Notes under the pieces: generated by a model
What the model was told of the DNA's origin: nothing
The model's input: the letters and a program-made list of their open reading frames with translations, nothing else
Databases searched by the model: none
DNA from: Spirogloea muscicola
Lineage: Eukaryota; Streptophyta; Zygnematophyceae; Spirogloeales; Spirogloeaceae
DNA length: 24,280 nt
Assembly (NCBI GenBank): GCA_009602725.1
Contig: WELB01000073.1
Span: forward strand, 618,693-642,972
Direction: 5' to 3'
Shown here: in pieces, positions 4,231-21,580 of the stretch
Numbering within the stretch: the stretch's first letter is position 1
Layout of the letters: the number at the start of each line of letters is the position of its first letter
Made by a program: the position numbers and the translations under genes

Positions 4231-4341
4231 GGGAAGCATTGAGAACGACTAGCACAGTGAATGCGCGCGGTGCGCATGACATTGAAAGGGAGGCTTCACA
4301 AATGTCCTGTTAACTGGGAAATGAGCTGGCTAAGGGGGACA

Positions 4342-4943
4342 CTAATATCCCCGAGTGAGCACATGCATATCTGACACGCTATACAGAGGCGCCACACCAC
4401 CACCACGGAAGCCATTAGCTTGGGCTATTGCACGACCGGCACGCTGGTGTATCGCGAGTGCCTGGGAGCGCTGTAGACTCAATGAGAGCCGCATTCTATA
4501 GCATGCAAGGATGGCTTGCGGGACGCTAGAATGCCCCAAGCTACCCGCCCGACTACGTCGGCGGGCATCGACATGCAGTGCCAGGCGATGGAGGAGGGAA
4601 GACCACTTCGTTCCGTAGCTGCCGTAGATGTCCATGGCGCATGGGAAGGAAGTGGTCGCCCCGGGGGTGGTCATCATAGTGCCTCTCCGTCTTCCTCTGT
4701 GCATGATGTGTCGCCCAACCTGGCACAGTCGGTGTGGGTGCCTCTGGTTGGAATGCGTCGATGAGAACGACGTCGAGGAGAAGACGAGGCCCACCACTCC
4801 GGGGGGGTGGTCACCACATCCAGACGCCTGACGTAAGGCCTGCCACGCTTCTGGAGCACCGGCATGATGCCCGGCACCTCCATGGCCGCATGATAACCTG
4901 CCTTGCGCACCAAGCCATACATAGCGTCTCTGAGAGAGCACAA
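4342..4943 (-). pseudogene. Longest truncated LINE-like copy, C-terminal part of polyprotein (copy A)
   Basis: On the minus strand a frame from 4943 begins RDAMYGLVRKAGYHAAMEVP, followed by a run with GRP and LDVV. This resembles the region after the reverse transcriptase in some non-LTR retrotransposon proteins, where a nuclease-like domain has an RPD...DV pattern. A frameshift moves the sequence into the next frame, where DIYGSYGTKWSSLLHRLAL, MRLSLSLQRSQALAIHQRAG and the terminus SDMHVLTRGY plus TAG (4344-4342) follow. The block MRLS-LQRS-A-AxHxRAGRA recurs in the other copies. No reverse transcriptase domain is present, so this is a 5'-truncated, broken copy. The order of parts is seen; assignment to a LINE is inferred. 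Confidence 0.65.
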
Positions 4944-5030
4944 AGAGAACCTAAGCAGCTACGAAGCACTCAGCAACCCCCTGCTAAGCAAACTCAGGTC
5001 AGAGAGACTGGGTTCCTGGAAGCGGGACGT
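4944..5030 (-). pseudogene. Element C-terminus remnant (copy D)
   Basis: The minus strand encodes SLSDLSLLSRG around 5010-4970, then AGTGCTTCGTAGCTGCTT, a stretch also found after the plus-strand copy at 21538-21580. The stop codon of the consensus is not kept here. It belongs to a subfamily ending in SDLRLLSRGY, as opposed to the LLTRGY form. Confidence 0.6.
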
Positions 5031-5097
5031 CCCTCATGCCCCCCGCTCTGCCGGGGACCAGAAGCGGGCTCTTTCGCTGCAGCCTCTGCCTTTCGCC

Positions 5098-5422
5098 ATT
5101 CGTCATTTGGCCCCTTCGCACCTTCGTCAATTCTTATTGGGCTGGCTGTTCACAGCCCTTGCCCCCATTGGGAGAGCCACTTCTTCTTCCGGAGGACGCG
5201 GCTCTCGCTCGAGTCTGCAGCGCTCCCTGGCGCTCTCGCGACACATCAACGTGCCGGGCCCGCACTAGGCCAGGCGCAGCATGGCTTGCGTGCTGGTGGT
5301 CTGGCTTTGACCTTGTCCATTCCTCTCACAGCCACTGCTGTCCATTTGGCAGAGCTGTTTCTCCTTCTGGCTCTCCTCAGCTTACCTCGTCGGATATGTG
5401 TATGCTCACTCATGGATACTAG
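5098..5422 (+). pseudogene. Element tail followed by truncated C-terminal copy (copy B)
   Basis: 5098-5190 is a tail with GGGCTGGCTGTTCACAGCCC and CCCCCATTGGGAGAGCC. From about 5195 the coding block follows: the ALATHQRAGPAL stretch is in one frame and SSDMCMLTHGY plus TAG (5420-5422) in another, so the copy is frameshifted. A second partial tail (CCTTGTCCATTCCTCTCACAGCC) lies at about 5313-5335, between the two parts. This is a mosaic of at least two insertions. Confidence 0.6.
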
Positions 5423-6000
5423 AGACCCCGTTCAGACAGATTCTTGCCCCGTTCTTGCATCAGGACTTTCTAATGCTCGGGTTGGCCTCCCTTCATTCCA
5501 TGCTCACCGCGCGCCCTCCTTTTGAAGTGGGTGAGGGCCAGCCCAAAGAGAAGCAAGCCCACCAAGAACAGCTCTTCCAATCTACGGCAATGGCTGTGAG
5601 ATGCCAACCCGGAAAAATGTACAAGATCTGAAAGGGCCACGAAGGATGGACGAAATAAGCTCAGTCAAAGGGGGCAAAGGCTGTGAACGGGCATAGCTCT
5701 TCCCATGCAAGAAGTGAGCTCATCTCAAGGGGCGGGGGCTGTGAAAAGCCAGCCCAGATAGAATGAACAAGGTACAGGGGCCCGAAAGGCGCCAGGTTCA
5801 GACGGATATGCAAGAGACTACAGCGTATGGGAGCTTAGTGAGGGAATGGCTGTGAGAAGTGAGCTCTTCCAATACGGGCGGGGCCTGTGATAAGAATGAA
5901 GTGGCTCTCTGTAGAGAACCTCGCCCAACACAAGCAGTTAGGGTGAGCAGTCCTTTAGTTCGGCTCTTAAGGGACCAACCCACTACACAGGCAAAGCACT
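5423..6000. repeat. Mosaic of element tails, mostly minus strand, no gene
   Basis: Contains the shared motif CATGCTCACCGCGCGCCC near 5499-5515 and minus-strand tails near 5540-5600, 5715-5790 (GGGGCTGTGAAAAGCCAGCCC region) and 5850-5900. They vary in the hairpin and the CCAATGGG part. I see no continuous coding frame and no host gene here. Confidence 0.5.
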
Positions 6001-6282
6001 AGCGCATAGGCGCAGCGGAAGACAGGCCCTGTGGCGCCGCCGTCCGGCGGCGACTCCACCTCCTGGGCGCAGGCCGGCGCAGCAGGCCCCGCAGCAAGGT
6101 GCGGCGGCGGCTGCGGCGGCGAGCAGCGGCAAGGCTGCTCCAGGGGCTTCACCGGTTCGAACTCCTGTCGAGCCTCAGCACCAAGGCTCTTCGTGCTTCC
6201 CCGTGCCACCCCCCCTCCAGGGGGGACCTACTTCCAGGAGCCTAGCTTCTCTGACCTGAGGCTGCTTAGCAGGGGTTACTGA
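6001..6282 (+). pseudogene. Element C-terminal copy with GC-rich open leader (copy C)
   Basis: A frame from 6031 stays open for 83 codons and ends with SFSDLRLLSRGY plus TGA (6280-6282). Its first 50 codons are Gly/Ala-rich and GC-rich and have no counterpart in the other copies, so they may be chance. The end belongs to the LLSRGY subfamily, together with copies D, N and T. A B-box-like GGTTCGAACTCC near 6150 has no cloverleaf around it. Confidence 0.55.
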
Positions 6283-6411
6283 GTTATACGTAGCTGCTTT
6301 GTTTCTTGTTGTCCTTGTTTTTCTTAGCGCTTCCCCTGGCCCCCTTCTCGTACTCAAGGTCTGAAGGGGCCAAAAGCGCTTCCTCAAAGCCTGCCCGGTA
6401 GGATGAACCAC
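6283..6411. repeat. Tail-to-tail junction of two element copies
   Basis: The plus-strand copy ending at 6282 is followed by its 3' region (GTAGCTGCTTTG, then CTTCCCCTGGCCCCCTTCTCG). From about 6351 comes the inverted 3' region of the minus-strand copy that ends at 6412 (ACTCAAGGTCTGAAGGGGCC). The two elements therefore meet by their 3' ends. Neither keeps a full hairpin here. Confidence 0.5.
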
Positions 6412-6600
6412 TTATTGGTAACCTTTAGTGAGGAGCCGCGAATCAGAAAGACGAGCAGCCGGAGAGCAATCTCCCTGACGAAAGCCAGAGGCTGCAGCCA
6501 GAGCACGGCCAGCACGCAGGTGCAAGGCGTCGGCCATGGACCACTGTGGAGTGATATGGATAGGCGCATGCCAAAGACCTGAGCTAGCGAGCCAGCGGTG
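6412..6600 (-). pseudogene. Truncated element copy (copy E)
   Basis: The minus strand reads FGMRLSISLHS near 6590-6560. A frameshifted block matching RAGRALAAASGFR comes next, then SDSRLLTKGY and one extra codon before TAA (6414-6412). Codon-level similarity to copies F and L is clear. The upstream break near 6600 and the frameshifts mark it as a dead fragment. Confidence 0.65.
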
Positions 6601-6654
6601 TGGAAGTCGGCCTGCTCACCTCGCTTGCGAGAAACAGCGCGTTGCGCAAGCTGG

Positions 6655-6905
6655 TCCATCAGGCTGTGAAAGGCTAGCCCAGAAAGAATGAACAAGGTCG
6701 AAAGGGCCGAAGGCGCTAAGGCTACACAGCTATTCAAGTGAACACAGAGGCATGGGAGCTTAGTAACCCCGAGCCCGCGCCGCAAGTCGGAGTGACTTGC
6801 AGCTAAAATAGAAGAAGAGTCGCGGCCAGAAAGAGAGGAACGAGAACCAGAAGCAGCAGCCTTAGCACGGCCTGCCCGCAAGTGCACAGCGTGAGCATTG
6901 GAAGA
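6655..6905 (-). pseudogene. Truncated element copy followed by its tail (copy F)
   Basis: The minus strand reads SSNAHAVHLRAGRA near 6905-6860, then a degenerate middle and SDLRRGLGVTK, where a small indel has shifted the usual SDLRLLTRGY frame (TAA at 6762-6760). Downstream on the same strand is the tail with TTGTTCATTCTTTCTGGGCT and CACAGCC (about 6700-6655). The order, coding end then 3' region then hairpin, is the layout expected of a complete 3' end of the element. Confidence 0.65.
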
Positions 6906-7115
6906 GAGAGGAGAGAAGGACGCTTCCAGGAGAGGGCGGTGGCTGTGGAAGAAGTGGCTCTCTCAATGGGGGCAAGGGCTGTGGAAGACCTCCACTTCCT
7001 CTCTCGCGCATCGCTCTCACAGCCATAGAAAGAAAGAAGTGGCTCTCCCAATGGGGGCAAGGGCTGTAAGAAGCCAGCCCGAAAAGAATTGACAAGGTTC
7101 GAAGGGGCCAAAGTA
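6906..7115 (-). repeat. Two successive element tails
   Basis: Two tails in the same minus orientation lie at about 7105-7030 and 6995-6950. Each has a GGGCTG/CAGCCC-type hairpin or half of it, then CTTGCCCCCATTGGGAGAGC or a near match. After the second comes CACAGCCACCGCCC and CTGGAAGCG (6947-6910), which is also found at 21711-21740 and, inverted, at 13569-13598. Confidence 0.65.
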
Positions 7116-7178
7116 CGAGCTAAGCAGCGACTGTGGGGCCTGAAGAGAGGCTATGGCAGAAGGGGGAGGATGGACCAC

Positions 7179-7300
7179 TCAGTAGTTACGAGTAAGGAGC
7201 CTCACATCCGACAGACTAGCTGCCGGAGAATTATCCCCTGACGAAAGGCGGAGGCCGCAGCGAGAGTGAGCACGGCCAGCACAGCCATACCTCTTCAGGC
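7179..7300 (-). pseudogene. Truncated element copy (copy G)
   Basis: The minus strand ends in SDVRLLTRNY plus TGA (7181-7179). Upstream on that strand, AGGCTGCAGC-like sequence, GCCTTTCGTCAGGGG and GGCCGTGCT-like bases match the middle block of copy E. It lies head to head with copy H on the other strand. Confidence 0.6.
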
Positions 7301-7306
7301 TTGCTG

Positions 7307-7435
7307 CGCTCGCAAGCCTTGGCTCTTCATCAACGTGCAGGGCGCGCTCTAAGTCGGGCCTCCGGCTTTCGTGGCGGCGCTCCAGCTCCCCAAGTTAGCT
7401 TGTCCGATTTGTTTGTGCTCTCCCGTGGGTACTAA
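7307..7435 (+). pseudogene. Best-kept element C-terminus, 43 codons in one frame (copy H)
   Basis: The frame runs without a break from RSQALALHQRAGRAL through ASGFRGG to SLSDLFVLSRGY plus TAA (7433-7435). It aligns residue by residue with the last 43 residues of copy A on the opposite strand at 4342. No initiation codon or upstream domain is present, so it is not a working gene, but the intact frame shows that the repeated unit is protein coding. Confidence 0.7.
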
Positions 7436-7540
7436 TGTCACCTTAGGCACCTTAGTTTAGGTCTCTGTATTACGTAGCCTTGTTTAGTTTGCACTCGCCT
7501 CTGCTTGAACTGTGTATTGGCTTGAATTGGCCTCCCTTTT

Positions 7541-7690
7541 CATTTCATGCGCCCCGCGCGCCTCTCTCTCTTCAGGCCCCGCAGTCGCTGCTTAGCTCGT
7601 AGTTCGGCCCCTTCGAACCTTGTCAATGCTTTTCGGGCTGGCTTCTCACAGCCCTTGCCCCCATTGGGAGAGCCGCTTCTTCTCACAGCC
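7541..7690 (+). repeat. Element leader motif and hairpin tail upstream of the serine acetyltransferase gene
   Basis: 7541-7562 carries CATTTCATGCGCCCCGCGCG, seen also at 5491-5515, 11431-11450 and, inverted, near 4261-4280. 7604-7690 is the tail: GGCCCCTTCGAACCTTGTCA, then GGGCTG at 7635 pairing with CAGCCC at 7649-7654, then CCCCCATTGGGAGAGCC. It is in the same orientation as the gene that starts at 7773, about 80 bases further on. Confidence 0.75.
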
Positions 7691-7772
7691 ATGACTGACT
7701 GGCGGCTTCCTCCACATCGTCCTGCCCTCCGCCCGGCCAAGCCCAGCCGGCAGAGCCCCCCCCCCCGCCGCC

Positions 7773-10759
7773 ATGCTGGCCGTGGCGCCCTCCCCGGCCC
7801 CCCCGCCCGCCTCCCTCCGCGCCCGCCTNGCTCCCGCCCCCCCTCTCGAGCAGCCCGCTCCCGACCCCGCCACGTCAAGCAGCGCCCCTGCAGGCGAGCA
7901 GCGAGCTCCGCCGACTGCCAGCCAAGCTGCTGCCGACCCACACGACGGCGCTGTCAGACGGGCCAACTCCCCTTCAGCCGAGCGGGATGCTGCAGCGTCC
8001 AAGCTTCCGGCACCGCCGCCCCCAAGCAGGCACTGGGCTGTCGCACCCGAAGGCGGCCGGCGCAGCAGGGCTGGGGAAAGCAGCGGTGGCCCAGGCGGCG
8101 GCCTGCCGACGACGGGCAGCTTACGTGGCAGGGACATTGCAGACGAGCCTCAGTGGAAGACCGTCTTCCCTGCGTACATGCAGAGCAAGATTGACGACTT
8201 CCGCAGATTGGGAGAAGGAGCTACAACGCAAACAGGTCCTGTCAATGGGGCCACCGTGCCCAATGGCTTGCGAGTCAACGGTGTCGAAGTGTCCATGGCA
8301 ATTGCTGCTGCGAGGGCCGCTAATGAGGCAACCAACCGTGCTCGTGGTGATTGCCCGCCCCTGTCCTGGTTCAGATTGCGCTTTCCGTCCAGGGCTGATC
8401 AGGAGGAGTGGTCCGCGCGAACGCGCAGTGCGTGGTGGTCTATGCAGATGCACCCCTGTGTTTCCTCCTGTTGCAATGGGAGTGGGTGCAGCATGGCTGT
8501 TTCTTGTCGCCCCCTACTCCTGTTCAGGGCGTGCAAGTCGATGCACTGCTTCTGGCCTTCGTTCAACGGCGCTGCGTCACGTGTTGTGGCGGTGCGCATG
8601 AGCAGGAAGAGTAGACGGGGCTGCATCGGCACCTCAGCCCTCTGCCTCAGATCAACCGGGCTTTGCAGCCGACGAGCTGCCGCAGCTACTGCAGGAAGAT
8701 CCAATCTGGGCAGCTGTCAGAGCAGAGGCTCGCCTGGAGGTATGTGGCAGCCCCAGGTGTTATGCTCCAGCTCCATCGGAGATCCGAGGACTTTAAATGC
8801 CGCCCTCCTGCCAGCTCGACTAATTTGTGACCAGGGCGTTGCCATGTGGTGCCTATGGAGTTCTCAACCCCCTGCTTTCCTGTCGGCCTTGCCAACAAAG
8901 TCTTGGTGGCTTATCTTTGGCTGGTGAAAGCTTGAAAAGCCGCGAGCACTTGAGAGCCTTCTGCGTATGACATGATTTGCAGGCAGAGAGGGAGCCGCTG
9001 CTCAGCAGCTTCTTGTATGCGAGCATTCTTGCCCACCCTTGCTTGGAGCGCTCATTGGGTTTTGTGTTGGCAAACCGCCTGAAGAACGCCACGCTACTGG
9101 CCACGCAGCTCTTAGACGTCTTTGACAGCGTCCTCATGCACGACCCGTTCACCCAGACAGCCATCAGAGCAGATATTCAGGTGGTCATACTGATCGCGCT
9201 CAGCACGGAGCAGGCACTGCATTTGCATCGTCCGTAGGGCTCACCACAAGGCCATATCAGTGATATTGATCTGCTCTGTGGCCGGGAGAGGTGTAAAATC
9301 ATGTTGTGCCTTCAAGTCGAGGCACTGTCTAGTAGGTCGGGGTGCGTGCATGTCAGCTGCCAGATTGTCACGTCAGCTTGAAGTGGTTGGATGCCTTGTG
9401 GCTCATTGGTATATTGCTGTTGCATGCCACAGGCTGTCAAAGACCGAGACCCCTCTTGCCGCTCCTACAGCTGCGCACTTCTCCACTTCAAGGTGAGAGT
9501 AGTATAAACTGAGCAAGGGAGGTTGTTCAGCGCAGCTCACCCTCAGCAGGAGCACTTGCAGCGAGCTTGCAAGTGCCTGTCTTGGTCAAGAGAAGGGTCA
9601 GTCAAGCAGGCTTTCCCGGCGTGACAGCGGGGGTGTGTTTCAGTAGCCAAGGTACCATGGTCGTCCGTTGATGCTGAGCTGGCATGTACTGCTGTCCATG
9701 AGATTGAGATTTGAGAGCAGCTCACAACCCCGGGGTCGGACTGTGATGGGCTTTCACAGGGTTACCACGCACTGCAGGCGTACCGCATTGCGCACGCTCT
9801 CTGGGTTCGGGGTCAGCGTGTGCTGGCATTGGCCCTGCAAAGTCGTGTGAGCGAGGTCTTTGCCGTAGACATACATCCTGGTGAGCCTAAAGAGTCTAGT
9901 ACTATTTGGCAAGGCTTAAGGACTTGCCTTCACCATCCAAGAGCAGCAGGATTTCAAGTCAGCAACGTATTGTTCGATTCTGCGCTTGGAGCCCAGAAGC
10001 TGAAGTTGCTGTGACTCCTCGGTCTGCAGCCGCCCAAATTGGCATGGGCATCCTCCTGGACCACGGAACTGGGGTTGTCATTGGAGAGACAGCAGTGGTT
10101 GGTAATCGCGTGTCAATGCTGCAGGCGGTGACTTTGGGAGGAACGGGCAAGGAGGCAGGTGACCGCCACCCAAAGGTACGAGATGGCGTTTTGATTGGTG
10201 CAGGGGCCACAATTCTTGGAAACATAGAAATCGGAGGAGGCTCCATGGTTGCTGCAGGTTCACTGGTGCTCAAGGACGTTCCTCCTCACAGGTGAGGGGT
10301 AGTGTCTCAAACTCCTCACGCCCACTGCTTACAGCTCAAGGGGTCCTGCGGAGCATCTCAGTGTCGTTGCTTGTGTCTGCACAAGTGCACTTGTCCGAGG
10401 CTGCCAAAGGGCTTATAGCCTGTGGTTGGTATCGCCGACCTCCTATGTCCTTGCAGCATGGTGGCCGGCACCCCAGCAACGCTTGTCGGGGTTCTTGAGG
10501 AGGCTTCGCCTGCGCTGACCATGAAACACGGTAAGCTCCCCTTGACCTGCAATCTAGGTGATCCCTGGGTGCATATCTTGCTGTTGCACGCTGCTGACAG
10601 GGGGACACCGTGCAAGTCTGTACGGTGGTCAGCATTTGTCGCAGATGACCTCAGTTCAGTGTCTGGTCTGCAGATGTGGCGAGCGACTTCTGTGCCAAGT
10701 GGGAGGAGGCTGTGCGGCAGACGCTTCAGAGGGAGGCTAGCTATGGTGATGGCATTTGA
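7773..10759 (+). CDS. SAT: Serine O-acetyltransferase, 8 exons
   Basis: Transfers acetyl from acetyl-CoA to serine, giving O-acetylserine, the carbon precursor of cysteine. Exons: 7773-8346, 8651-8739, 8983-9180, 9433-9492, 9760-9880, 10030-10291, 10457-10530, 10674-10759; phases agree and give 487 residues. Seen: the helical N-terminal domain (WAAVRAEARLE, then LATQLLDVF), KDRDPSC at 290, the left-handed beta-helix repeats, DHGTG with catalytic Asp358-His359, and DRHPK with His394. The C-terminus ends GDGI; a terminal Ile is what this family inserts into O-acetylserine (thiol) lyase to form the cysteine synthase complex. The start lies in GCCGCCATG. The first ~190 residues are low complexity with no recognised domain and may include a transit peptide. 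Exon 2 has a second in-frame acceptor, giving a start at 8669. Base 7831 is ambiguous. Confidence 0.96.
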
Positions 10760-11225
10760 CTGCGACCATCGGGAGTGTGACAGACTGGGCAGCGGAGTTC
10801 CAGCAGAGGCTTCATGAGCTCGTGGGATGCACATCGGAAGGGGAAGGCGTGACTCTCATTTGCGCAGCCGAGGGCCCACAGCACCCGGATCTGATGAGGG
10901 TGTAGCCGCTGCGAGCGCCATGGCAGTGTTGTGTGTACAGGGGCGAGTGGGGGGTGAGGACAGCATGTCGCAACGCATGGTGCCGGCGAGCCCAGCTCGT
11001 GGTGGGTCCACGAGGAGGTACAGGGAGGGGCGTGAGGTGCCGACCCGCTGTCACGACGGGGCCAGGCAGGCCTGCACGCGTGGTGGGTAGTGAGGACGGT
11101 CACAGCTGGAGCAATTGGTTGCTTCTCAACACAACAAGAGCCGTTCCAGATTACAAAGCTCACTTTCTTCCAGAATCTGGTAGTGGCTGTGATGAGAGGC
11201 CATCACGTCAGTGTGCTTCTGCATT
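10760..11225. other. 3' region of the acetyltransferase gene; nothing recognised
   Basis: About 465 bases after the stop codon. Frames of up to 154 codons overlap on both strands, but none resembles a known protein or continues as an exon of a neighbour. Presumably 3' UTR and spacer. Confidence 0.4.
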
Positions 11226-11640
11226 GTTCGGCCCCTGCGGACATTGTCCATCCCCTCCCTTTTCTGTGGAAGAGCCTGCTAGGGATGACGAAGTGACCTT
11301 CCTTCAGGGCTGGCCTTTCACAGCCCTCACCCTCTTCTGGACAAGCTTTCTTCTTCCGAGCTTATGTAGCACCATACTTTGCACTAGCTCTGCCTGAGCA
11401 GTGTATTGGCTTCATCTGGCCTGCCTTTCAATTCATACGCACCGCGCGCCTTCTCTCTACCTTGTTCATCCCTTTTGGGATACACCACTTTCCGTCCGCT
11501 TGGGTCATTGTCCGGTCTCTTCGGCCTAGCTCACGCTGCCCGGGACCAGTGGACCTTGTACATTTTTCTGTGCTGGCTCTTCACAGCCTCGCCCTCTTTG
11601 GGAGAGCCAATCTCACTTTCTGGGCTGGCCTCTCCTTGCC
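11226..11640 (+). repeat. Two plus-strand element tails with the shared leader motif between
   Basis: GGACATTGTCC at 11239-11249 opens a degraded tail that reaches a GGGCTGGCCTTTCACAGCCC hairpin near 11310. 11431-11450 holds the ATTCATACGCACCGCGCGCC motif, preceded by TGTATTGGCTTCATCTGGCC, as in front of the acetyltransferase gene. A second tail follows at about 11548-11610, with CTTTGGGAGAGCC. No gene follows closely, unlike the tails at 7604 and 21640. Confidence 0.6.
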
Positions 11641-11721
11641 ATTCAGCATGGGGGCTGACGGTAGTCTCCATGCACGGCGCACTCACCTCGTCGCTATCAC
11701 GCCCGGAGGGGGGGAGGTCCT

Positions 11722-11880
11722 CGCATCATCGAGGACATAGTGACAACCCACTCGGTCGACTCCGCCAACCCCACCGAATCCGTGGCGGAAGCAGGGCACA
11801 CAGTTGGCAAGGCTGCCAGCGGACTCGAGCGCAAGTACGTGGACCACCCTGCTGGTGATGAGTTTGTGGCACTGGGATAG
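11722..11880 (+). pseudogene. Internal fragment of the element polyprotein (copy U)
   Basis: A 52-codon frame without ATG ends in LERKYVDHPAGDEFVALG and TAG (11878-11880). The part KYVDHPAGDEF parallels RHYDDHPRGDHF, which copy A encodes on the minus strand just upstream of DIYGSYG, so this appears to be a piece from further upstream in the same protein. A run of seven G just before it may have caused a frameshift. Low similarity, so held lightly. Confidence 0.45.
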
Positions 11881-11924
11881 ACATGTACGGAGCGTTTCAG
11901 AAGAAAGCGCGGCCAGATTGACTA

Positions 11925-12130
11925 GTGGCTGTGAGAGGCCAGCCCAAAGGAATGGACAAGGTCTGATTGAGCCGGAGTGCTAATTACTAACACAGCAGCA
12001 AGGGGACTCTCAGTAACCTCTAGTCAGGAGATGCAAGTCGGAATAGCGAGCAGGCAGTCGAAGTCGGAGGCTGGACCTCCTGCAGCCGCTTGCACGGCGG
12101 GCCACCAATAATCGGCAGGGACAGCAAGCT
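11925..12130 (-). pseudogene. Truncated element copy and tail (copy I)
   Basis: The minus strand encodes YSDLHLLTRGY plus TGA (12012-12010), followed on that strand by a short 3' region and the tail with GGGCTGGCCTCTCACAGCC (about 11975-11930). Sequence further upstream on the same strand is too eroded to follow. It lies head to head with copy J. Confidence 0.65.
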
Positions 12131-12133
12131 GAG

Positions 12134-12331
12134 TTGCCCGGCTTCAACGTCACCGTGTCACTTGCCCTGTTCCGCATGCGGCTCTTCAAGTCCTCTGAGG
12201 GTTCCCAAGCTCACGCAGTGCACTCACGTGCAGGCCGCGCTTTGGCTGCTACATCTGAGTTTTGTCGGGGTGACTTAATTCCAGCTGCAAGTTGCTCTGC
12301 CTTGCGGCTGCACTTGCTGACTAGAGGTTAA
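12134..12331 (+). pseudogene. Truncated element copy, 65 codons open (copy J)
   Basis: MPGFNVTVSLALFRMRLF is followed by HAVHSRAGRALAATS, then FCRGD and ALRLHLLTRG and a TAA (12329-12331) one codon earlier than usual. The PGFN and FRMRL words recur in copy O at 13868 onward. The ATG falls inside the element's coding region, so it is probably not a true start. Confidence 0.65.
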
Positions 12332-12383
12332 TAAGCGCCCACTCGCAGAAGTCACAGAGATAAATCGTGCCTTTTGCACCTTC

Positions 12384-12841
12384 CGGTCGTTTCAGACCTT
12401 GTACATCCGTTTGGACAGGCCTCTCACAGCCACTGCCTTACATTGAAAAGAGATGTTCCATTTGGGCTGCTGTCTCGGGATCACTGAGCTCCCAATGCAG
12501 CTTAGCAGCAGGTGATGTACACCTGTTAATGTGCTTGCCTTTGTAATTGGCCACTCAGGCCCTTATCACTCAATACAAACTCCATTCCGATCGCTGTAGT
12601 CTCTTGCATAGCTGTGTGATTTCAGCGCCTTCCAGACCTTGTCACCTTGGCTGGCTTGTTGCAGCCCTTGTCCTTCGGAAGAAGGGAAGTGAGCTTTTCC
12701 AAGAAGAAACAACTCTTCCAATGCAAGGCAATGGCTGTGAGAGGCCAGCCCAAGGAGTGTACATGGTCTGGAAGGGCCTGGAGGCGCAGAAAGCACGACA
12801 ACACTCTCTATGACTTCTGCAAAAGGGCGCTCTTTAAACTC
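12384..12841. repeat. Opposed element tails, no gene
   Basis: A degraded plus-strand tail (GACCTTGTACATCC, then AGGCCTCTCACAGCCACTGCC) lies at about 12395-12445. A minus-strand tail lies at about 12775-12710, read there as CCATGTACACTCC, then TTGGGCTGGCCTCTCACAGC. Between them I see only further degraded tail sequence. No frame here is believable as a gene. Confidence 0.5.
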
Positions 12842-13110
12842 TAGTTAGCAAGTGCAGACCAGATATCTAGAGGGCGGAAATCGTCACCCTGGCGGAAGCC
12901 GGAGGCCACACAAGGCGCGGCCTGCCCGCAAGTGGTCGGCAAATGCCAAGGAAGGCAAGGCGCATCCTGTACACTGGAGCAAGCGACCTTACGGCATTGA
13001 AGCCGGGCTGCTCGCTCTGCTACTCTTGGCGGCCGGACACAGCACTCAGCGCAAGCGGATGGAGTAGTCGAGCCAGCAAGTCCCAAACGCCCCGTGGACG
13101 TCGACCGCAG
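12842..13110 (-). pseudogene. Truncated, frameshifted element copy (copy K)
   Basis: The minus strand carries RMRLAFL near 12965-12945, then DHLRAGRAL in a shifted frame and the GCCTCCGGCTTCCGCCAGGG middle block. The C-terminus is decayed (DIWSALAN then stop, where others have SDLRLLTRGY). Several indels separate the blocks. An old copy. Confidence 0.55.
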
Positions 13111-13372
13111 GCGCGACAAACTCGTAGCCGGCGGGGTGGTCTGCGTACTGAAGCTGGACATGTCGCTGATGGCAGCCCTGAGCTGCTGCATTAGTCCGGC
13201 AATGTACACTGCCCTCGCTCGTTTGAGGATGTGTCCGGCTCGGCCCCAGGGCTAGCCTTTAAAAAGTTACGGCTGCTGATGTCAAAGAAGTGGCTGTAAT
13301 GGCCAGCCAGGTGCATGCAGAGGGAATTCATGACTAAATTAGCAGAGCCACAGCTCGGCAGACAGGGCGCTA

Positions 13373-13654
13373 TTAGTACACCAGTGTCAGCAATAGGAAG
13401 TCAGATGAGCTGAGGGAAGGAAGAGCAAGCCGGCTGCGCAAGCCAGAGGCTGCTGCAAGGGCTCGGCTCGGCTCGGCTCGGCGGTGCAGAGCAAGCGCTT
13501 TAGACCGCTGTAGATAGACAGCCCAGCCCAGTTCTTGGCTGCAGCCTCTGGCTATAGACAGGAGATATGACGCTTCCAGTAGAGGTCGGTGGCTGTGAGA
13601 GATTAGCCCAGAATAAATAGTGAACAAAGGTCGAAGGGGCCAGAGAAAGCACAC
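13373..13654 (-). pseudogene. Truncated element copy with preceding tail (copy L)
   Basis: The minus strand reads AVYLQRSKALALHRRAEPSRALAAASGLRSR and ends SSSDFLLLTLVY plus stop at 13373. The four GCTCG units at 13461-13480 insert residues into RAGRAL in this copy only. Upstream on the same strand is a tail remnant and the CACAGCCACCG...CTGGAAGCG block (13598-13569). Confidence 0.65.
13461..13480. repeat. GCTCG pentamer microsatellite, 4 units
   Basis: Four perfect tandem GCTCG units inside element copy L. They sit where other copies encode RAGRAL, so they look like slippage after insertion. Confidence 0.85.
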
Positions 13655-13679
13655 AGTGAATCAACCAGCCACGAAGCAC

Positions 13680-13765
13680 TCAGTAACCTCTGATGAGCAG
13701 GGGACCCGTTACCCGGAGACTAGTTTCTCTGACCTGCGGCTGCTCAACAGGGCATGTGGAGCACC
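13680..13765. pseudogene. Two opposed terminal fragments (copies M and N)
   Basis: On the minus strand 13700-13680 encodes LLIRGY and TGA (copy M). On the plus strand, from about 13702, GTRYPETSFSDLRLLNRAC matches the LLSRGY subfamily, but without its stop (copy N). Each keeps only the last residues of the element protein. Confidence 0.5.
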
Positions 13766-13859
13766 CGGTGGCCACTTGAGTCGCGGTGTGCTTTGGCGCT
13801 TTCTGGCCCCTTTCAAACTTTGCTCCGCCTTCCTTCTGACCGGCGGCCGGGTCTGCCAG

Positions 13860-14135
13860 GGGCGATGCCCGGCTTCAACGCTGCCGGTTCGCTCGCCTAA
13901 GTCTTCCGTATGCGCCTGGCGATATCGTTTCAACGCTCCCTTGCCAACGCCGTCCACGTGCAAGCAGGCCGTGCTATGCCCGCCGCCTCTGGGTCTCGGC
14001 GGAATGCCTCTTTCCCTGGACATTGTCCATTCTTTTGTGGGCTGGCTTTGCCAGCTCCTCTTCTCTATGGGCGCGCACTTCTCTTTCCCTGCGGCGAGCT
14101 ACTCCGACCTGATGTTGCTCACTCGCGGGTACTGA
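13860..14135 (+). pseudogene. Truncated element copy interrupted by a nested tail (copy O)
   Basis: PGFNAAGSLA-like sequence, then FRMRLAISFQRSLANAVHVQ, AGRAMPAASGSRRNASFP up to about 14018. After an interruption, FPAASYSDLMLLTRGY and TGA (14133-14135) complete the protein end. Frames shift near 13895. Removing 62 bases between the two parts restores the order seen at 21320-21376, which shows they were once contiguous. Confidence 0.65.
14019..14080 (+). mobile_element. 62-base tail insertion flanked by 11-base direct repeats
   Basis: The inserted piece runs from GACATTGTCC through the GGGCTGGCTTTGCCAGC hairpin (14039-14056) to GGGCGCGCACTT. It is flanked by CTCTTTCCCTG at 14008-14018 and again at 14081-14091. 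The related copy at 21320-21376 has a single CTCTTTCCCTG at the same place and no insert, so it acts as an empty site. This looks like an extremely 5'-truncated insertion with a target duplication. Confidence 0.55.
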
Positions 14136-14207
14136 GCTTCCCTCTGCATCGTCTGGTGTTTTGTAGTGTTTTGTGGTGTAGTCCTTTTTCGGAACCTCTT
14201 TCTTCGG

Positions 14208-14290
14208 CTTTGGACATTGTCCATTCTTTATGGGCTGGCTTTGCCAGCCCCTCTTCTCTAAGGGCGAGCACTTTCTTTGTGGGCTCGCCA
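14208..14290 (+). repeat. Element 3' tail with perfect hairpin
   Basis: GGACATTGTCC (14212-14222) precedes GGGCTGGCTTTGCCAGCCC (14232-14250), a perfect 8-base-pair stem with a TTT loop, then CTCTTCTCTAAGGGCGAGC. It follows the stop of copy O by about 75 bases, which gives the full 3' layout of the element. Nearly identical to 21455-21510. Confidence 0.8.
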
Positions 14291-14419
14291 CGCACAGCAG
14301 CCCTCTCCTGGCTGTCTAGCCTGTGGCTCCGTCATGAACACCTGTATGCATCTGGCTGGCTTTCACAGCCGCTCTTTTAATATCAGCAGCCGCTTGAGCC
14401 TGGAAGCACTCCTCTTGGT

Positions 14420-14476
14420 GCCTCTTTCCCAGCTTCCAGTTATTCTGACGTGCTGTTGCTCACTCGTGGATACTGA
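14420..14476 (+). pseudogene. Element terminal fragment (copy P)
   Basis: One frame encodes ASFPASSYSDVLLLTRGY plus TGA (14474-14476). It shares the upstream GCCTCTTTCCC with copies O and S. The element's 3' region follows (about 14477-14568) before it is interrupted. Confidence 0.7.
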
Positions 14477-14568
14477 GCTCTTCCATCTGCATCATTTCGT
14501 GTCCAGTTATGTAGTTGTTCCTTTTCAGCACCTTTTTGTGGCCTTTGGATATTATCCTTTCTGTTCTC

Positions 14569-14660
14569 TCAGTAACCCCTCGTCAGTAGATGCAAATCTG
14601 AATAGCTAGCAGGGCTGGCTTTGCTAGCCCCTCAGTTTCTACGGGCGAGCAATTACCCTT
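14569..14660 (+). repeat. Hairpin tail upstream of the reductase gene, split by an inverted fragment
   Basis: The tail that starts TTTGGATATTATCC near 14544 stops at about 14568. 14569-14612 is an inverted terminal fragment encoding SYSDLHLLTRGY plus TGA on the minus strand (copy Q). The tail resumes with GGGCTGGCTTTGCTAGCCC (14612-14630) and ACGGGCGAGC. Plus orientation, about 230 bases before the ATG at 14860. Confidence 0.65.
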
Positions 14661-14859: not shown

Positions 14860-17800
14860 ATGATGTACGTCATCAAGCGCAACGGCAAGACGGAGGCCGT
14901 GCACTTCGACAAGATCACCTCCCGCCTCAAGAAGCTCTGCTATGGCCTCAACCCCGAGCACTGCGACCCCGTCACGGTCGCGCAGAAGGTCTGCGCGGGC
15001 GTCTACAGGGTGCGCCCTCCTCCGCTCCGCCTCGCGCTACCTCCCACCTCGCGCTCGCTCCTTGCGCCTGCCATGCCTCACCAGCAGCCTGCTCCGACCC
15101 CGCCACCGCCGCCACTCGTCGCTCATCTGTGCTCTCTGGATGCAGGGGGTCACCACGAGCCAGCTGGACGAGTTGGCCGCAGAGACGGCCGCCGCGATGA
15201 CCGCCAGCCACCCTGACTATGCGCTCGTGAGCTCCCTTGGCTGAGCCAGCGGGTGCTGCTCCACGGCAGCAGCTGCTGGCCGAAGTCAAGACCGGATATG
15301 GGCTCGCTCCAGCCTCATGTCTCTCTTTTCTTGGTGTCCTGCAGCTTGCAGCTCGTGTTGCAGTCTCCAACCTCCACAAAGAGACAGCCAGGACCAAGCT
15401 GTTCTCCGATACGTAAGCCCCCCCTGACTCGCCAGCATGTGCAGCTCGCCATGGTCGATCTGTGGGCAAGCCTGCGCCTGCAGCGGCTGCCTGGGCAGAA
15501 GGCGCAGGGCGTCAGTGTCAGGCCTGGCCTTCTCAAACTACATTTGGCCTGCCGTGGCCCTCTGTGACAATGCCTGACAGCTCCACCCTGTTCACCTTGT
15601 TGTTGGTGGTGGTGGTGGTGGTGGTGTTGGAGCACTTCAGCATCCAGGCCATGTACGACCACGTCAACGAGGGATCCGGCCTGAAGGCCCCCCTCATCGC
15701 CGAAGATGTATACCAGATAATCACGAAGGTGTGGCTGCCCGCCTCCACTGCGTTGGCAACCTGCTCTGCTGCCTGAGCCAGGGTCCTTTGCCTCAGCGGC
15801 TTATGCGCGCTGGCGTCGATGTTGCTGCAGAATGCGGAGCGCCTGAACAGTGAGATCGTGTACGATCGGGACTTTGACTACGACTTCTTCGGTTTCAAGA
15901 CCTTGGAGAGGTCGTACTTACTTAAAGTCAATGGCCGTGTTGTGGAGAGGCCACAGCACATGATCATGAGGGTGGCTGTCGGCATACATAAGGAGGACAT
16001 TGAGGCTGCCGTTCGGACTTACCACCTCATGTCTGGGCGGTGGTTCACACATGCGTCACCCACTCTCTTCAACGCAGGAACTCCCAGGCCCCAGGTGCAA
16101 GGATCACAGCGTGCCCGTGTTGCAGTCTCCCTCCGAGCTGGTTTCACAGTATATCCTGCCACTGGGATACAGTGGCAGTCTCTGACTGCAAAGATCCTTG
16201 TACTTGGCTGTTGCTATGCGCAGCTGAGCAGCTGCTTCCTAGTTTGCATGAAGGAGGACAGCATCGAGGGCATCTACGACACTCTCAAGGACTGCGCAGT
16301 GATCAGCAAGAGTGCTGGAGGCATTGGGCTTTCGGTGCACAACGTGCGCGCCACCAGCAGCTACATCCGCGGGACAAATGGCACGAGTAATGGCATCGTG
16401 CCAATGCTGCGTGTTTTCAATGACACAGCCCGATATGTCGACCAGGGCGGAGGCAAACGCAAAGGTGTGTGACGCCCAGTCTCTCTCGCTGGCTCGCCCC
16501 CGCTGAATGAACCAGCTGCTGCTCATAGCAGCCTCTTGCCGACTGCAGCGGACTACCTACTTTCTGGGTCACTGACACTGCTGTGTTTTTCCCTCGGCAG
16601 GGGCATTTGCTATCTATTTAGAGCCGTGGCATGCGGACATCTTTGACTGGTTGGAGCTTAGAAAGAACCATGGAAAGGTGAGCCAGAGCTCAGCAGCTGA
16701 GCACCACATATATGGGCTGCCTGCTTTTTGGCACCTGACTTTCTTAGCACCTGCTTGGACATTCCGGGGCCTGTGTGTGAGAGGACCATGGTGAAAATGC
16801 GTGTGCAGGAGGAGGCACGGGCGCGGGACCTCTTCTATGGGCTCTGGATCTCGGATTTGTTTATGGAGCGCGTCCAGGGCAACTCCACCTGGTCCCTCTT
16901 CTGCCCAAACGAAGCACCCGGGCTGGCTGACTGCTGGGGGAAAGAACATGAGGAGCTGTATGTCAAGTACGAGACCATGGTAAGAGCATCACGCCCCAGG
17001 TCAAGGCCCAACCGAAGTGTTTGCATTGTGGGTAGGAGAGCGGAAGCTTAGCCGTGCTTGGCCTCACACAAGGCCTTCACCTGCTCAGGGAAGGGCGAAG
17101 AAAGTGGTCCAAGCTCAGAGGCTGTGGTTCGCCATACTCGAGGCTCAGATTGAGACGGGCAATCCGTACATGCTCTTCAAGGTGTGAGCACCATACGACC
17201 GTGCGTTCCCTTGTGGCAGTTATGAATGTCCATGTCCTTGTCGCGCCAGTCGAGTTGGTGACTGGCCTGCTTCACCATTGACCCCGCAGGATGCTTGCAA
17301 TCGGAAGAGCAACCAGCAGAACCTCGGCACCATCAAGTCGTCCAACCTCTGCACCGAGATCATCCAATACACTAGCCCTGAGGAGACAGCTGTCTGCAAC
17401 CTCGCGTCCATAGCGCTGCCACGCTTTGTCCGGGAAAAAGTAGGCAGTCATCAAGGCTGCAGTCCCCCTCCATGCAGCTCTGCATGATGCTCCACACGAG
17501 ATATCACCTTGCCTCCAACACAAGCTGGCCTACTAGTTTCCCACCTTTGGTCTGTCACTTATGGTGAATCCTGTCCTGGGCAGGGAGTACCGCTCGAGAA
17601 GCATCCTGCAAAGCTAGTTGGTAGCAGGGGTCACCAGAATCGGTACTTTGACTTCGACAAGCTCGCAGAGGTACGTTACCTTAGTGCCTGAAGTTGGCAG
17701 CAGAGCCCTGCAGCACAGTGCTAGGTGTCAATATCCACAGTGCTGGCAGAACTGACTCTGAGGGCTCTCTGCAGATCACGACCCTTGTCACGCTGAATCT

Positions 17801-19555
17801 GAACCGGATAATTGACGTGAACCACTACCCGACCGAGAAAGCCCGGCTCTCCAACCTGCGGCATCGGCCCATTGGCATTGGTGTCCAAGGCCTGGCTGAC
17901 ACTTTCATCCTGCTGGGCATGCCCTTTGACTCCTTGGAGGTAGTGCAGATGCCACCGCACATTCGCACACTGTCTTATATGGGGCTGATTGTTGCCGTGC
18001 TTCCACCAAGCCAGGCATGACTGGAGCAAGGAGATCTGACCCCTGCCCACATCCCTGAGCTGCAGGCTCGGCAGTTGAACAAGGACATATTCGAGGCCAT
18101 TTACTACCACGCCGTGAGAGCTTCTTCGGACTTGGCCCGTATTGAAGGCACCTACGAGAGCTACCTGGCAAATGGCGGCTGTCCAGTCAGCAAGGTTGGC
18201 AAATTGCAAGATCTGTTGCTTGTGCCCAAGAATGCACTTTGGGCTTCATGTGTTGTTAAACCAGTCAGCAGAGGTCCTCGCAGCCTCATGGTAGCCCTCT
18301 GAGACTCGCTTACTCGTTGCTGGCAGGGCATTTTCCAACCAGACATGTGGGGTGTCAATACATCTGAGAGATGGGACTGGCCAGCTCTGCGCAAGCAGGT
18401 CGCCAGAGACGGCGTGCGGAATTCGCTGCTACTTGCGCCCATGCCCACAGCGTCCACCAGCCAGATCCTTGGCAACAATGAGTGCTTTGAACCTTATACT
18501 TCGAACATCTACTCTCGCCGGGTCTTGAGGTAATAGCCCTGTGGCTGAGCGGGCCTGCCCAGTTGTTGCCACCGCAATGAGTGACAAGTCATGAGCCCGA
18601 GTCGCTTTTCACTCTGGTGATGATGGGACTCGGGTGCCCATCGTGGTGTGCAGTGGGGAGTTTGTTGTCGTCAACAAGCACCTTCTCCACGATCTCACAG
18701 ACATGGGCATCTGGACTCCTGACTTGAAGAACACCATCATCTATCACAATGGGTCCATCCAGCGGATTGATGTCATACCTGATAGTTTGAAGGCGGTGTA
18801 CAAGTGAGTCGCACATGACCTCTGTCAAGAGCCTGCTGCACTTTGCCTTCCGCTCAGTTGTTTCAGCTTCCTGCACAGTCGGTGTCAAGCAATGAAATTG
18901 CCTCCCTGCCTGTGCAGAACGGTGTGGGAGATCAAGCAGCGGACGCTGGTGGACATGGCTGCAGACCGAGGCGCGTACATTGATCAGAGTCAGAGCCTCA
19001 ACATCCACATGGATGCACCCAATTTTGGCAAACTTACTTCGCTCCACTTTCATACATGGCAAAGAGTACGTCTGCCCCTTTTCCAAATATTGCAGTCGGG
19101 CCAGCCTTGTATGGACAGCCTGAGGGTCTATCTGGTCTGCAGTTATTGTATCCATCATCGGCTTTCGGGTTTTACTGTCTGTATTTTGGTGTAGTCAACA
19201 AAGCTAACTGCAATGTGCGGGCAGGGCATGAAAACTGGCATGTACTATCTTCGATCACGGGCTGCTGCCGATGCCATCCAGTTCACAGTAGATGCAGCTG
19301 CTGCTAAGGTATTTAAATCTCGTTGCTCAAGACCCAAGTATGCTGAAGCTTCATGCTTATTGCCAATGCCGGCATGTTCACAGCCGGCAATGCCAGCAAA
19401 GAGATGCACTGTGCTGACAGCACTGACTAGATCATGGGGCTTCCATCTGGCAGGGTGCTGACAAAGTGAGAGCAGAAGTGGAGCTGGAGACGAACAGAGT
19501 GCAGCTGGCATGCTCATTGGACAACAAGGACGAGTGCCTTGCCTGTGGCAGCTGA
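14860..19555 (+). CDS. RNR1: Ribonucleoside-diphosphate reductase large subunit, class I, 18 exons
   Basis: Reduces NDPs to dNDPs with the small-subunit tyrosyl radical; cytosolic, no targeting peptide. Exons: 14860-15009, 15146-15226, 15345-15412, 15641-15728, 15831-16094, 16224-16464, 16601-16677, 16809-16979, 17089-17181, 17290-17439, 17584-17670, 17775-17939, 18066-18194, 18327-18529, 18654-18803, 18918-19065, 19225-19308, 19454-19555; all GT-AG, phases consistent, 816 residues. Seen: N-terminal ATP cone ([18 protein letters not shown]), Cys221 in LSSCFL, the active-site N430-C432-E434 in NLCTE, Cys447 in AVCNLAS, the radical-transfer Tyr pair in GMYYLR and a C-terminal ECLACGS whose CxxC re-reduces the active site. 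All catalytic residues are present, so it should be functional. The start has a GCCGCCATG context; a second Met follows directly. Confidence 0.97.
15604..15626. repeat. TGG trinucleotide microsatellite in intron 3
   Basis: Almost eight TGG units lie 15 bases before the acceptor of exon 4, where a pyrimidine tract would be expected. On the sense strand the tract is G/T only. Confidence 0.85.
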
Positions 19556-20700
19556 CAGTATCGGCACCACTGTAATTAGCAGCATGTACATGTAAGTCAA
19601 ACCTGAGTGACGATCTGGTCAATGGGCAGGCTCTGAAGTTGGCTGCCACTCCTTGCAACCACCAGAGATGTCTCGGATGGCGTGGTGGACCCACACAGGC
19701 CTGCGAGTCGAGTGAAGGTATACGCCGCTGCTGCTGCTGTACAAAGACCAGCAGTTTGGACTTTGACCATTGTTGCAATTTGTTACTGGAGCGGACTGCC
19801 AGTAGACAAGGCTTACTTGGGAAGTAAGCTTTCATTTTGTCAGAAGCTCAGCTCAGAATATTCCACGTGGATGTTGACGGTAGACATGTGTACCATAATA
19901 TTCTTTTCCCTCAAGGACACTGTAGAGAGCACAACATCAGGCATTCTTCGCTTTCAGTGAATGGGCACCACGCTTTCTGTCCACAGCCAGACTGAATGAG
20001 ATGATCTGCCTCGCTCTCTGTTCCCCTTGCTCTCCAAGGCGTATAGGCTAGTCTTGATTTTTGTTGTGAAATGACAAGGTAAGACGTCGAGAAGGGATTG
20101 ACTACTGGCGCAACAGTGTTGGTCTCCGTGTCGATAGTAGAGCTGCTTGTCAATCCAGCGTTGCGAGTGACAGTCGAGGAGCTTCAGTGAGTATCTTGAT
20201 CGAGAGTTGGCCAATGAGTTGTTGCATTGACAACCTCAAAGGCAAGGGTGGTGGCAGTAATTTGTTTCGATGAAGACGTTTGTGGCTGTGGTCGCAGCGG
20301 TCAGGTACTTTTGGGTGTTGTGCACACTGCCCTTTCTCGCTTCAGACGATCGCTGTGACAAAGGAAGATCTGGTCAAGTAGCCACCGAGCCACAGCACTG
20401 AGGAGACCAGGGTAATGTGCAAGATCTATGCACAGCACTAGTATGTCTCGTTGCAGTCGCATGGGCATGCAAAGTGAGGGCAGTGTGCTGTATAGCAACC
20501 TGCCAAATAAGTGGCAGTGGGCGCCACGTGTGGAGCTGGTTGTCATGGCAGTGTGGCCTGAGGAAGAGGTTTTTACGGAACTGATTCGAAGTGTTTGAGG
20601 CCGTCGTAATATATCACTGTTCTGCCGCTAATACTCACCAGCAATGACATTGCAGGATTCAATGTAGACAGTCCACCTAGATTCAAACTCAACCGGCCAC
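19556..20700. other. 3' flank of the reductase gene; no gene recognised
   Basis: About 1.1 kb, less GC-rich than the genes, with stops in all frames. TGTAA pentamers at 19571 and 19591 are very close to the stop codon. No element tails or SDLRLLTRGY ends are seen in this part, in contrast to the stretch after 20700. Confidence 0.45.
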
Positions 20701-20723
20701 GACTCCGTACAGCGTACATGAGG

Positions 20724-20880
20724 CCAGTAACCCCTAGAGAACAGCTGCAAGTTGGAGAGTCTTCGCAGCTGATGATAGTCCCTCCACCAAAAACAAGCAG
20801 CAGCAGTCAAGCCGCGGCCTGCCCACAACTGCACTGCATAAGGCTGAACTGGGACAGAGAGATGCATGCGGAACACCTTG
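20724..20880 (-). pseudogene. Truncated element copy with lost stop (copy R)
   Basis: The minus strand encodes FRMHLSVPVQPYAVQLWAG, then LTAAACFWWRD and SNLQLFSRGY; the usual stop TGA is TGG, so the frame reads on to 20628. The middle part stays open for over 50 codons. Its 5' edge on that strand is near 20880. Confidence 0.65.
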
Positions 20881-20937
20881 GCAAGCTACCCTGCGGCATT
20901 GGAGCCGGGCAACCTTACCTTGCTGTTTGAGCACTTG

Positions 20938-21005
20938 TCGGCCCCCTTCGGGCTTCGTCCACTCTTCTCGGGCTGGCTTTTCACAGCCCTCGCCCCCCTC
21001 CGAAC
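20938..21005 (+). repeat. Element 3' tail
   Basis: GGCCCCCTTCGGGCTTCGTC is followed by GGGCTGGCTTTTCACAGCCC (a 6-base-pair stem) and CGCCCCCCTCCGAAC. Plus orientation. It lies about 180 bases before the tRNA gene. Confidence 0.7.
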
Positions 21006-21182
21006 TAACTTGCTGTCCCTGATGACGATCTATCGATGGCCCGCCAGGCCAGGAGGTCGCAGCCACCGACTGCCAAACGCCTATCAAGACGCTGAGGAAG
21101 CTCCCACTCGTCTGCCGAGACTGTGGGAGTGATGAATATAGTGTGTTTTGCCGTCGAAGTGGTCTAGGAGGGGGGCATCGGT

Positions 21183-21255
21183 GACTCTGTGGCCCAATGG
21201 ATAAGGCGCCGGTCTACGGAACCGGAGATTCTGGGTTCGATCCCCAGCAGAGTCG
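21183..21255 (+). tRNA. trnR-ACG: tRNA-Arg (anticodon ACG)
   Basis: 73 bases with a complete cloverleaf and no intron: acceptor stem GACTCTG/CAGAGTC, D arm with GCC/GGC, anticodon stem CCGGT/ACCGG with loop CTACGGA (anticodon ACG at 21216-21218), T stem CTGGG/CCCAG with TTCGATC, and discriminator G. The internal A box (TGGCCCAATGG) and B box (GGTTCGATCCC) are intact. CCA is not encoded, as in eukaryotes. Position 34 would be inosine, reading CGU, CGC and CGA. Sits between element copies. Confidence 0.97.
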
Positions 21256-21260
21256 CCACC

Positions 21261-21266
21261 TTTTTT
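21261..21266 (+). terminator. RNA polymerase III terminator
   Basis: Six T residues five bases after the tRNA. A second run of nine T lies at 21285-21293 and could act as a backup. Confidence 0.85.
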
Positions 21267-21319
21267 CGGTTTCTCTGGCCTCTCTTTTTTTTTGTTCACT
21301 CGGTCCTTCTGGGCGGAGC

Positions 21320-21376
21320 GCCTCTTTCCCTGCAGCGAGCTACTCAGACCTGATGTTGCTCACTCGTGGGTACTGA
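21320..21376 (+). pseudogene. Element terminal fragment, uninterrupted (copy S)
   Basis: Encodes ASFPAASYSDLMLLTRGY plus TGA (21374-21376) in one frame, near identical to the end of copy O and its 3' region, but without the nested tail. It serves as the empty-site comparison for 14019-14080. Confidence 0.7.
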
Positions 21377-21449
21377 GCTTTCCTCTGCATCGTTTCTGTG
21401 TTCTGCAGTATGTTGTAGTGTAGTCCTTTCTCCGGCTCCTCTTGCTTTG

Positions 21450-21580
21450 GCTTTGGACATTGTCCATTCTTTTTGGGCTGGCTTTGCCAGCCCCTCTTTT
21501 CTATGGGCGCGCTCGTCTTTCTGGGCTGGGCCTCTCACCCCAGTCTCTCTGGCCTGAGGCTGCTTAGCAGGGGTTACTGA
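21450..21580 (+). pseudogene. Element tail with perfect hairpin, then terminal fragment (copy T)
   Basis: GGACATTGTCC (21455-21465) and GGGCTGGCTTTGCCAGCCC (21475-21493, 8-base-pair stem) form the tail of copy S. From 21538, SLSGLRLLSRGY plus TGA (21578-21580) is the end of an LLSRGY-subfamily copy, so the two subfamilies lie head to tail. Confidence 0.7.

Follow-up and report, generated by a model that had tools for sequence, protein, structure and literature searches.

LINEs that carry a restriction-like endonuclease (RLE) are described in PMC4640811 as an early-branching group, site-specific in most clades, and in PMC5678591 as having a KX2KY motif and, ahead of the RLE, a zinc knuckle of the form CX2-3CX7-8HX4C. 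R2 (R2Bm, R2Tg) has a single ORF with finger(s), reverse transcriptase (RT), knuckle and RLE, and a fixed site in the 28S rDNA; the HERO clade is reported to contain many RLE families without target specificity (PMC4640811). Zepp is an L1-clade LINE (PMC8226300). Together with ZeppL it forms, in the published accounts of green algae such as Coccomyxa and Chlamydomonas, nested stacks of 5'-truncated copies that are mostly 3' ends, with one cluster per chromosome (PMC8226300, PMC3446292).

A stretch of 24,280 nucleotides from the alga Spirogloea muscicola (contig WELB01000073.1, positions 618,693 to 642,972), referred to here as the window, contains many reading frame ends of one type. These are very probably the 3' remains of one R2-like LINE that comprises several related families; its single ORF is predicted to encode fingers, RT, knuckle and RLE. 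The element is a new, abundant member of the known RLE-type LINE kind; no paper on it, or on RLE LINEs of Spirogloea, was found among the matches listed in the open-licence literature.

Copies of full length occur at other places in the genome; they measure about 4.1 kb and carry a single ORF of some 1,300 residues, in which putative N-terminal C2H2-like fingers are followed by RT, zinc knuckle and RLE, the same order as in R2. The sequence-only reading had taken the window ends for remains of a non-LTR retrotransposon and had proposed a search for RT and nuclease domains in an extended consensus. Both were found in full-length genome copies without building a full-length consensus: RVT_1 matched residues 576-804 of protein P0001 (E 7.9e-16), and the C-terminal RLE aligned with that of R2. 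Two candidate fingers were seen, one as a Pfam match below the cut-off (E 0.086) and the other by eye. A profile, A3, was made from 37 sequences, 35 of them from outside Spirogloea. The RT aspartates and the four CCHC residues of the knuckle were invariant in all 37, and thus kept in the 35 other rows, and D818 and K848 of the RLE were present in at least 90%. The knuckle of the element has the spacing CX1CX12HX3C, which differs from that of R2 and departs from the form given for RLE LINEs, a point against the R2-like reading. The KELKY sequence of the element fits KX2KY, and a C-terminal RLE with PD..D and KX2KY is predicted.

Against solved R2 proteins, A3 was co-linear over RT, knuckle and RLE (R2Tg, E 1.6e-42), whereas LINE-1 matched in the RT region only (E 2.4e-15), and R2 ranked first and LINE-1 second. 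An AlphaFold model of the element (pLDDT 88.9, pTM 0.88) gave seven top Foldseek matches, all R2, while in VIA-align the RTs lay close together (Z of 19.9 for R2, 18.9 for LINE-1 and 19.3 for group II). Profile searching also turned up uncharacterized proteins with RT and RLE from Closterium, Cymbomonas, Effrenium and metagenomes, which are 22-40% identical to the element. In contrast to R2 with its fixed rDNA site, the element was found in varied flanks in 22 young copies, and in having no fixed target it can be likened, by description only, to HERO.

The sequence-only reading had also named Zepp, with its accumulation near telomeres, as a possible identity. Zepp or a Zepp-like L1 LINE would share with the element nested stacks that consist mainly of 3' ends, but it is an exceedingly improbable identification. 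The nuclease is an RLE by prediction and not of the apurinic type, a distinction drawn from the published description of Zepp; no apurinic-type endonuclease (APE) was found in P0001 or in the 37 aligned members, two of which are rows without the N-terminus. Since Zepp belongs to the L1 clade, the element is not Zepp. The copies are, moreover, dispersed and not gathered in one cluster per chromosome: matches were listed on many contigs, tails were spread along C1-C3 among the first 100 of 2,468 places, and the final 2.5 kb ahead of the telomere in the window held no copies, so that the telomeric lead was dropped as well. Zepp identity was ruled out on nuclease type and distribution.

The ends in the window were scored with a nucleotide profile that spans the final codons and the stop, trained on other genome loci with the window excluded; the threshold of 9.8 bits was the top score among 20 dinucleotide shuffles of the window. 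Seventeen stops had been listed as ends of one common protein terminus, and 16 of these exceeded the threshold. The end at 13373 reached only 3.5 bits and is unsupported, and that at 6760 passed through its upstream piece alone (12.6 bits, with 8.2 bits for the end piece). Two extra termini outside the earlier list of stops, at 4976-5018 on the minus strand (33.7 bits) and 13713-13752 on the plus strand (32.3 bits), are probably the two stopless remnants mentioned previously. The terminus had been given as SDLRLLTRGY; the type holds, but this exact string does not occur among the termini recovered from the window; it covers several subfamilies, the variants here being SDLMLLTRGY, SDLRLLSRGY, SDLHLLTRGY, SDMHVLTRGY, SDLFVLSRGY and SDVLLLTRGY. 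Ends occur on both strands; the in-frame motif and stop are kept in nine termini, and the remaining ones are decayed. Codon counts were made on 33 termini picked by motif and are informative solely for synonymous variety. For the 3' untranslated tail, a 70-position profile gave 26 window matches above 10 bits and none in 20 shuffles (best 8.0), although it is less independent than the terminus profile because it was refined on sequences including the window.

The first copy (4159-4950, minus strand) is a 5'-truncated, frame-broken member of the SDMHVLTRGY family with its stop at 4342 and tail at 4161-4224. It has kept RLE sequence: over 56 residues, 4556-4807 in translation shares 48% identity with the RLE of P0001 (E 2e-13). 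Beyond the remnant at 4976-5018, the tail and terminus profiles showed plus-strand tails at 5122-5186 and at 5309-5364 with a decayed copy that ends at about 5422 (together 5122-5420), and the tail profile showed minus-strand tails at 5566-5627, at 5717-5773 and, weakly, at 5857-5894. A terminus SDLRLLSRGY with its stop occupies 6223-6282 on the plus strand (51.6 bits). On the minus strand lie decayed copies whose termini are close to 6412 and 6760, along with a tail at 6662-6699 (6355-6803), and a copy that has its terminus at 7179, a tail at 7034-7099 and a second partial tail at 6948-6989 (6948-7226). The copy at 7274-7682 on the plus strand, assigned by motif and profiles, ends in SDLFVLSRGY at 7435 with a tail at 7616-7682.

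Plus-strand tails (tail profile) at 11299-11351 and 11552-11611 with a coding fragment at 11498-11877 make up 11299-11877. A minus-strand copy (11901-12102; motif and profiles) ends in SDLHLLTRGY at 12010 with a tail at 11901-11963, and a plus-strand copy (12062-12682) ends at about 12331 (12.2 bits) with tails at 12395-12447 and 12635-12682. On the minus strand, 12617-13700 holds coding fragments (12617-13522), tails at 12703-12768 and 13561-13629 and the terminus at 13680; the unsupported end at 13373 falls here. The plus-strand feature 13713-14137 (motif and profiles) combines the remnant at 13713-13752 with a copy ending in SDLMLLTRGY at 14135, which has its own tail downstream (14213-14277); an older tail lies at 14019-14081, both by the tail profile. 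The next plus-strand copy (14420-14656; motif and profiles) ends in SDVLLLTRGY at 14476 and has its tail at 14612-14656; between this stop and tail lies a minus-strand terminus SDLHLLTRGY (14568-14612, stop 14569, 32.7 bits). Farther on are a decayed minus-strand copy with its terminus at about 20740 (20700-20942, 16.7 bits), a plus-strand tail (20952-20997, 31.3 bits) and, at 21308-21728 on the plus strand, a tandem pair of SDLMLLTRGY (21376, tail 21456-21520) and SGLRLLSRGY (21580, tail 21645-21709).

The tail contains a GGGCTGGC..GCCAGCCC inner hairpin and a short CTTTCTTC end, with no claim of covariation. RNAalifold, applied to 40 out of 58 chosen tails, predicted no common structure, and in the outer stem the 5' arm of one family paired better with the 3' arm of the other (-5.71) than with its own (-3.62). 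The hairpin may have a role in the mechanism proposed below, we infer.

Insertion was followed in young copies. Twenty with open frames of 245-484 residues were picked from 150 listed places, which means that they do not sample truncation lengths at random; L047, whose alignment ended before the tail, was dropped, while L030 joined the set along with both strands of L029, giving 22, with L031 as the reference. The variable 5' truncation proposed for the window is borne out by these copies, as the 20 truncated ones have 19 distinct starts, and shared 5' ends, which would speak against a LINE, were looked for and not seen. A CTTTCTTC-type sequence closes 20 of the 22, the exceptions being L050, which stops 42 bases earlier, and L030, which has another family's tail. 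In a search that tolerated filler and offsets, target-site duplications of at least 6 bases were found in 8 of 22 copies and in 13 of the 462 mismatched flank pairs that set the chance level; for at least 5 bases these figures were 12 of 22 and 42 of 462, so that 10 of 22 had no duplication of this length. At thirty places in the genome the score was identical, which suggests that the element has been active recently. Many copies barely exceed the 3' tail, and could belong to a separate non-autonomous, SINE-like family that uses the LINE tail. We consider this very unlikely, since the 19 starts along the ORF reveal no common 5' start, although young copies were selected for longer frames and short ones sampled differently, and since the window termini reach into coding sequence by differing amounts.

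An older fragment lay within 200 nt of 21 of the 22 young copies. Of 29 arbitrary places, which include genes and remained after 11 of 40 samples, mostly N, were dropped, only 7 had such a neighbour (Fisher 1.8e-7). A tail lay within 20 nt of 9 of the 22, compared with 6.6% of arbitrary positions (p 5.4e-6) and with 19.3% of window intergenic positions, whose limits were set by eye (p 0.016). This suggests targeting of old tails by new insertions. With query proteins free of translated tails, 25 of 158 complete tails had a copy on the same strand no more than 10 nt downstream, where random places close by would give 2.3; in 13 further same-strand tails the match spans the tail. Opposite-strand neighbours numbered 6 against 1.4 expected, so tail-to-tail arrangements are also somewhat in excess. 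Such head-to-tail stacks could instead arise in one integration event by template jumping, which the R2 reverse transcriptase performs in vitro (PMC8857657). This is improbable for the element, as by reading at least 6 of the 25 junctions join different families (L023:8709, L023:7323, L023:2770, L025:6534, L019:7758, L023:8901) and as young copies lie inside older ones, some of them flanked by a separate duplication (L043 and L048; L041 and L044 with 4 bases); the same source indicates that jumping may be unneeded for proliferation.

Later insertion into old tails might mean that the element prepares its own landing sites: its RLE or its RNA would prefer the CTTTCTTC tail of earlier copies, and head-to-tail chains would build up in gene-free stretches. 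We put this forward tentatively and lean against it. If true, it would account for the way in which an element lacking a fixed target fills a genome yet spares genes, and the life style of Zepp would have been reached separately via a different nuclease.

The duplications and the 5' truncation fit nicking and target-primed reverse transcription. The element protein would nick DNA with its RLE, and reverse transcription would be primed at the 3' end of the element RNA, the tail of which bears the hairpin and the short terminal sequence. Copying would as a rule stop early, leaving copies that are truncated on the 5' side and share their 3' end. The copies accumulate in intergenic stretches, frequently within or directly behind older tails, and decay there. 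An RLE LINE that lacks a fixed target and has left thousands of 3' ends in a streptophyte alga would offer a natural system for studying gene avoidance. Element fragments also occur inside annotated gene models, which are easier to clean once the element has a name.

A nucleotide profile of the repeated protein terminus, trained without window sequences, recovered 16 of the 17 ends for which the sequence-only reading had proposed one common C-terminus, all above 9.8 bits (the top of 20 shuffles), and also picked up two remnants beyond those 17. The shared terminus was thus confirmed with the exception of the end at 13373, which scored just 3.5 bits in the window scan, below the best shuffle. 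A 70-position profile of the tail, the 3' untranslated end of the element, gave 26 window matches above 10 bits and none in 20 shuffles. Element sequence was detected only in the intervals 4159-7682, 11299-14656 and 20700-21728, and the Pfam-matched exons (adenylosuccinate synthetase, hexapeptide transferase and ribonucleotide reductase large subunit) all lie outside them. Sequence of the restriction-like endonuclease (RLE) is still present in the copy at 4342-4950 (48% over 56 residues). Some 50 bases upstream of 21308, where an element fragment begins, lies a tRNA-Arg(ACG) gene (21183-21258), a neighbour by chance or a possible insertion target. The window forms the right-hand end of its contig (assembly 153 Mb, 471 contigs; 11 of 40 arbitrary 400-nt samples mostly N, owing to gaps or withheld sequence), which is closed by TTTAGGG-type telomere repeats at 24240-24280; neither the tail profile nor the element sequence search found copies in the preceding 2.5 kb.

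The C-terminal 242 residues of the element were found at 150 or more genome places, a lower bound since only 150 of 20,752 first-look candidates were scored; the score was identical, 454.2 bits, at 30 of these 150. Three retrieved places carried stop-to-stop frames of 1,338-1,357 residues, and the full-length protein, P0001, has 1,299 residues counted from the likely ATG. The 5' boundary ACACCATCC was common to two full-length copies, and the third begins 15 bases later. Domain search placed RVT_1 at residues 576-804 of P0001; a C2H2 match did not reach the cut-off, and no APE model matched. Homologues (207 of 7,991 scored at E 1e-10 or better) include, among the 120 listed, many metagenomic proteins as well as proteins from Closterium, Cymbomonas and Effrenium. 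An alignment of 37 sequences showed no variation in the RT aspartates or in the four residues of the zinc knuckle, and at least 90% of the sequences kept the RLE residues D818 and K848. R2Tg aligned to the element profile from RT through RLE (E 1.6e-42), pairing the knuckle, RHN, PD and second D motifs, whereas LINE-1 aligned over RT only (E 2.4e-15). Residues 340-1299 were modelled with AlphaFold (pLDDT 88.9, pTM 0.88), and the top seven Foldseek matches of the model were R2 chains; in VIA-align, R2 differed from LINE-1 and group II RTs by covered length only, not by Z.

The proposal of a non-LTR retrotransposon was borne out by RVT_1 and by the R2Tg alignment from RT to RLE. Judged from its sequence, the family is an RLE LINE, with the RT and RLE features of that group and an unusual knuckle spacing; no description of it was found in the literature searched. 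Its predicted protein resembles that of R2-type LINEs; the 28S insertion site is a feature of R2 that the element does not have. Zepp, left open by the earlier reading, is similar in nesting habit; identity with it was rejected, as the element has neither the nuclease type nor the clustering of Zepp.

The expected pattern of a shared 3' end with variable 5' truncation was found among 22 young copies: 20 carried the CTTTCTTC-type 3' end, and the 20 truncated ones had 19 different start points. The two exceptions were L050, ending 42 bases earlier, and L030, with the tail of another family. Flanking duplications of at least 6 bases were seen in 8 of 22 copies versus 13 of 462 mismatched flank pairs, although several share bases with the terminal CTT, and their true length may be less. 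Since L050 has a 7-base duplication despite its short end, the final tail portion may not always be needed.

The family is abundant and probably recently active. The tail 17-mer GGGCGAGCACTTTCTTC occurs 2,468 times in the genome and a 22-mer from another family's tail 1,183 times, with no occurrence of either reversed control. Among 158 complete tails from the loci read, 25 had a same-strand copy no more than 10 nt downstream, where nearby random places would give 2.3, and 6 had an opposite-strand neighbour as close (1.4 expected). At least 6 of the 25 same-strand junctions, read by eye, link different families, which there favours repeated insertion over template jumping. An older tail lay within 20 nt of 9 of 22 young copies, versus 19.3% of intergenic positions in the window (p 0.016); old tails may be a genuine insertion target, or this closeness may simply reflect what gene-free DNA consists of.

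The SDLxLLTRGY-type terminus is kept across element families, and five different arginine codons were used at one position among 33 termini, themselves chosen by the motif. Such varied codons within a kept terminus point to selection at the protein level. The final 20 residues, including SDLRLLSRGY (locus L029, 941-960 of the modelled part), had pLDDT below 50 and are predicted to be disordered in the monomer model.

Published EukProt gene models (P0002-P0007) include element pieces as exons, and in P0007 a PF00956 gene is fused to element fragments at both ends. The EukProt gene SM000058S18536 (s58:470200-475719) maps to C58:471207-472649, with two more similar loci on contigs C155 and C90. 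The SM prefix stands for Spirogloea muscicola, which makes this alga the probable source of the genome. A genome triplication of Spirogloea muscicola is described in PMC7994812. One pair of opposed copies recurs, with equal spacing and reversed order, at C20:1130796-1135995 and C338:9309-14508, pointing to a duplication or to redundancy between these contigs.
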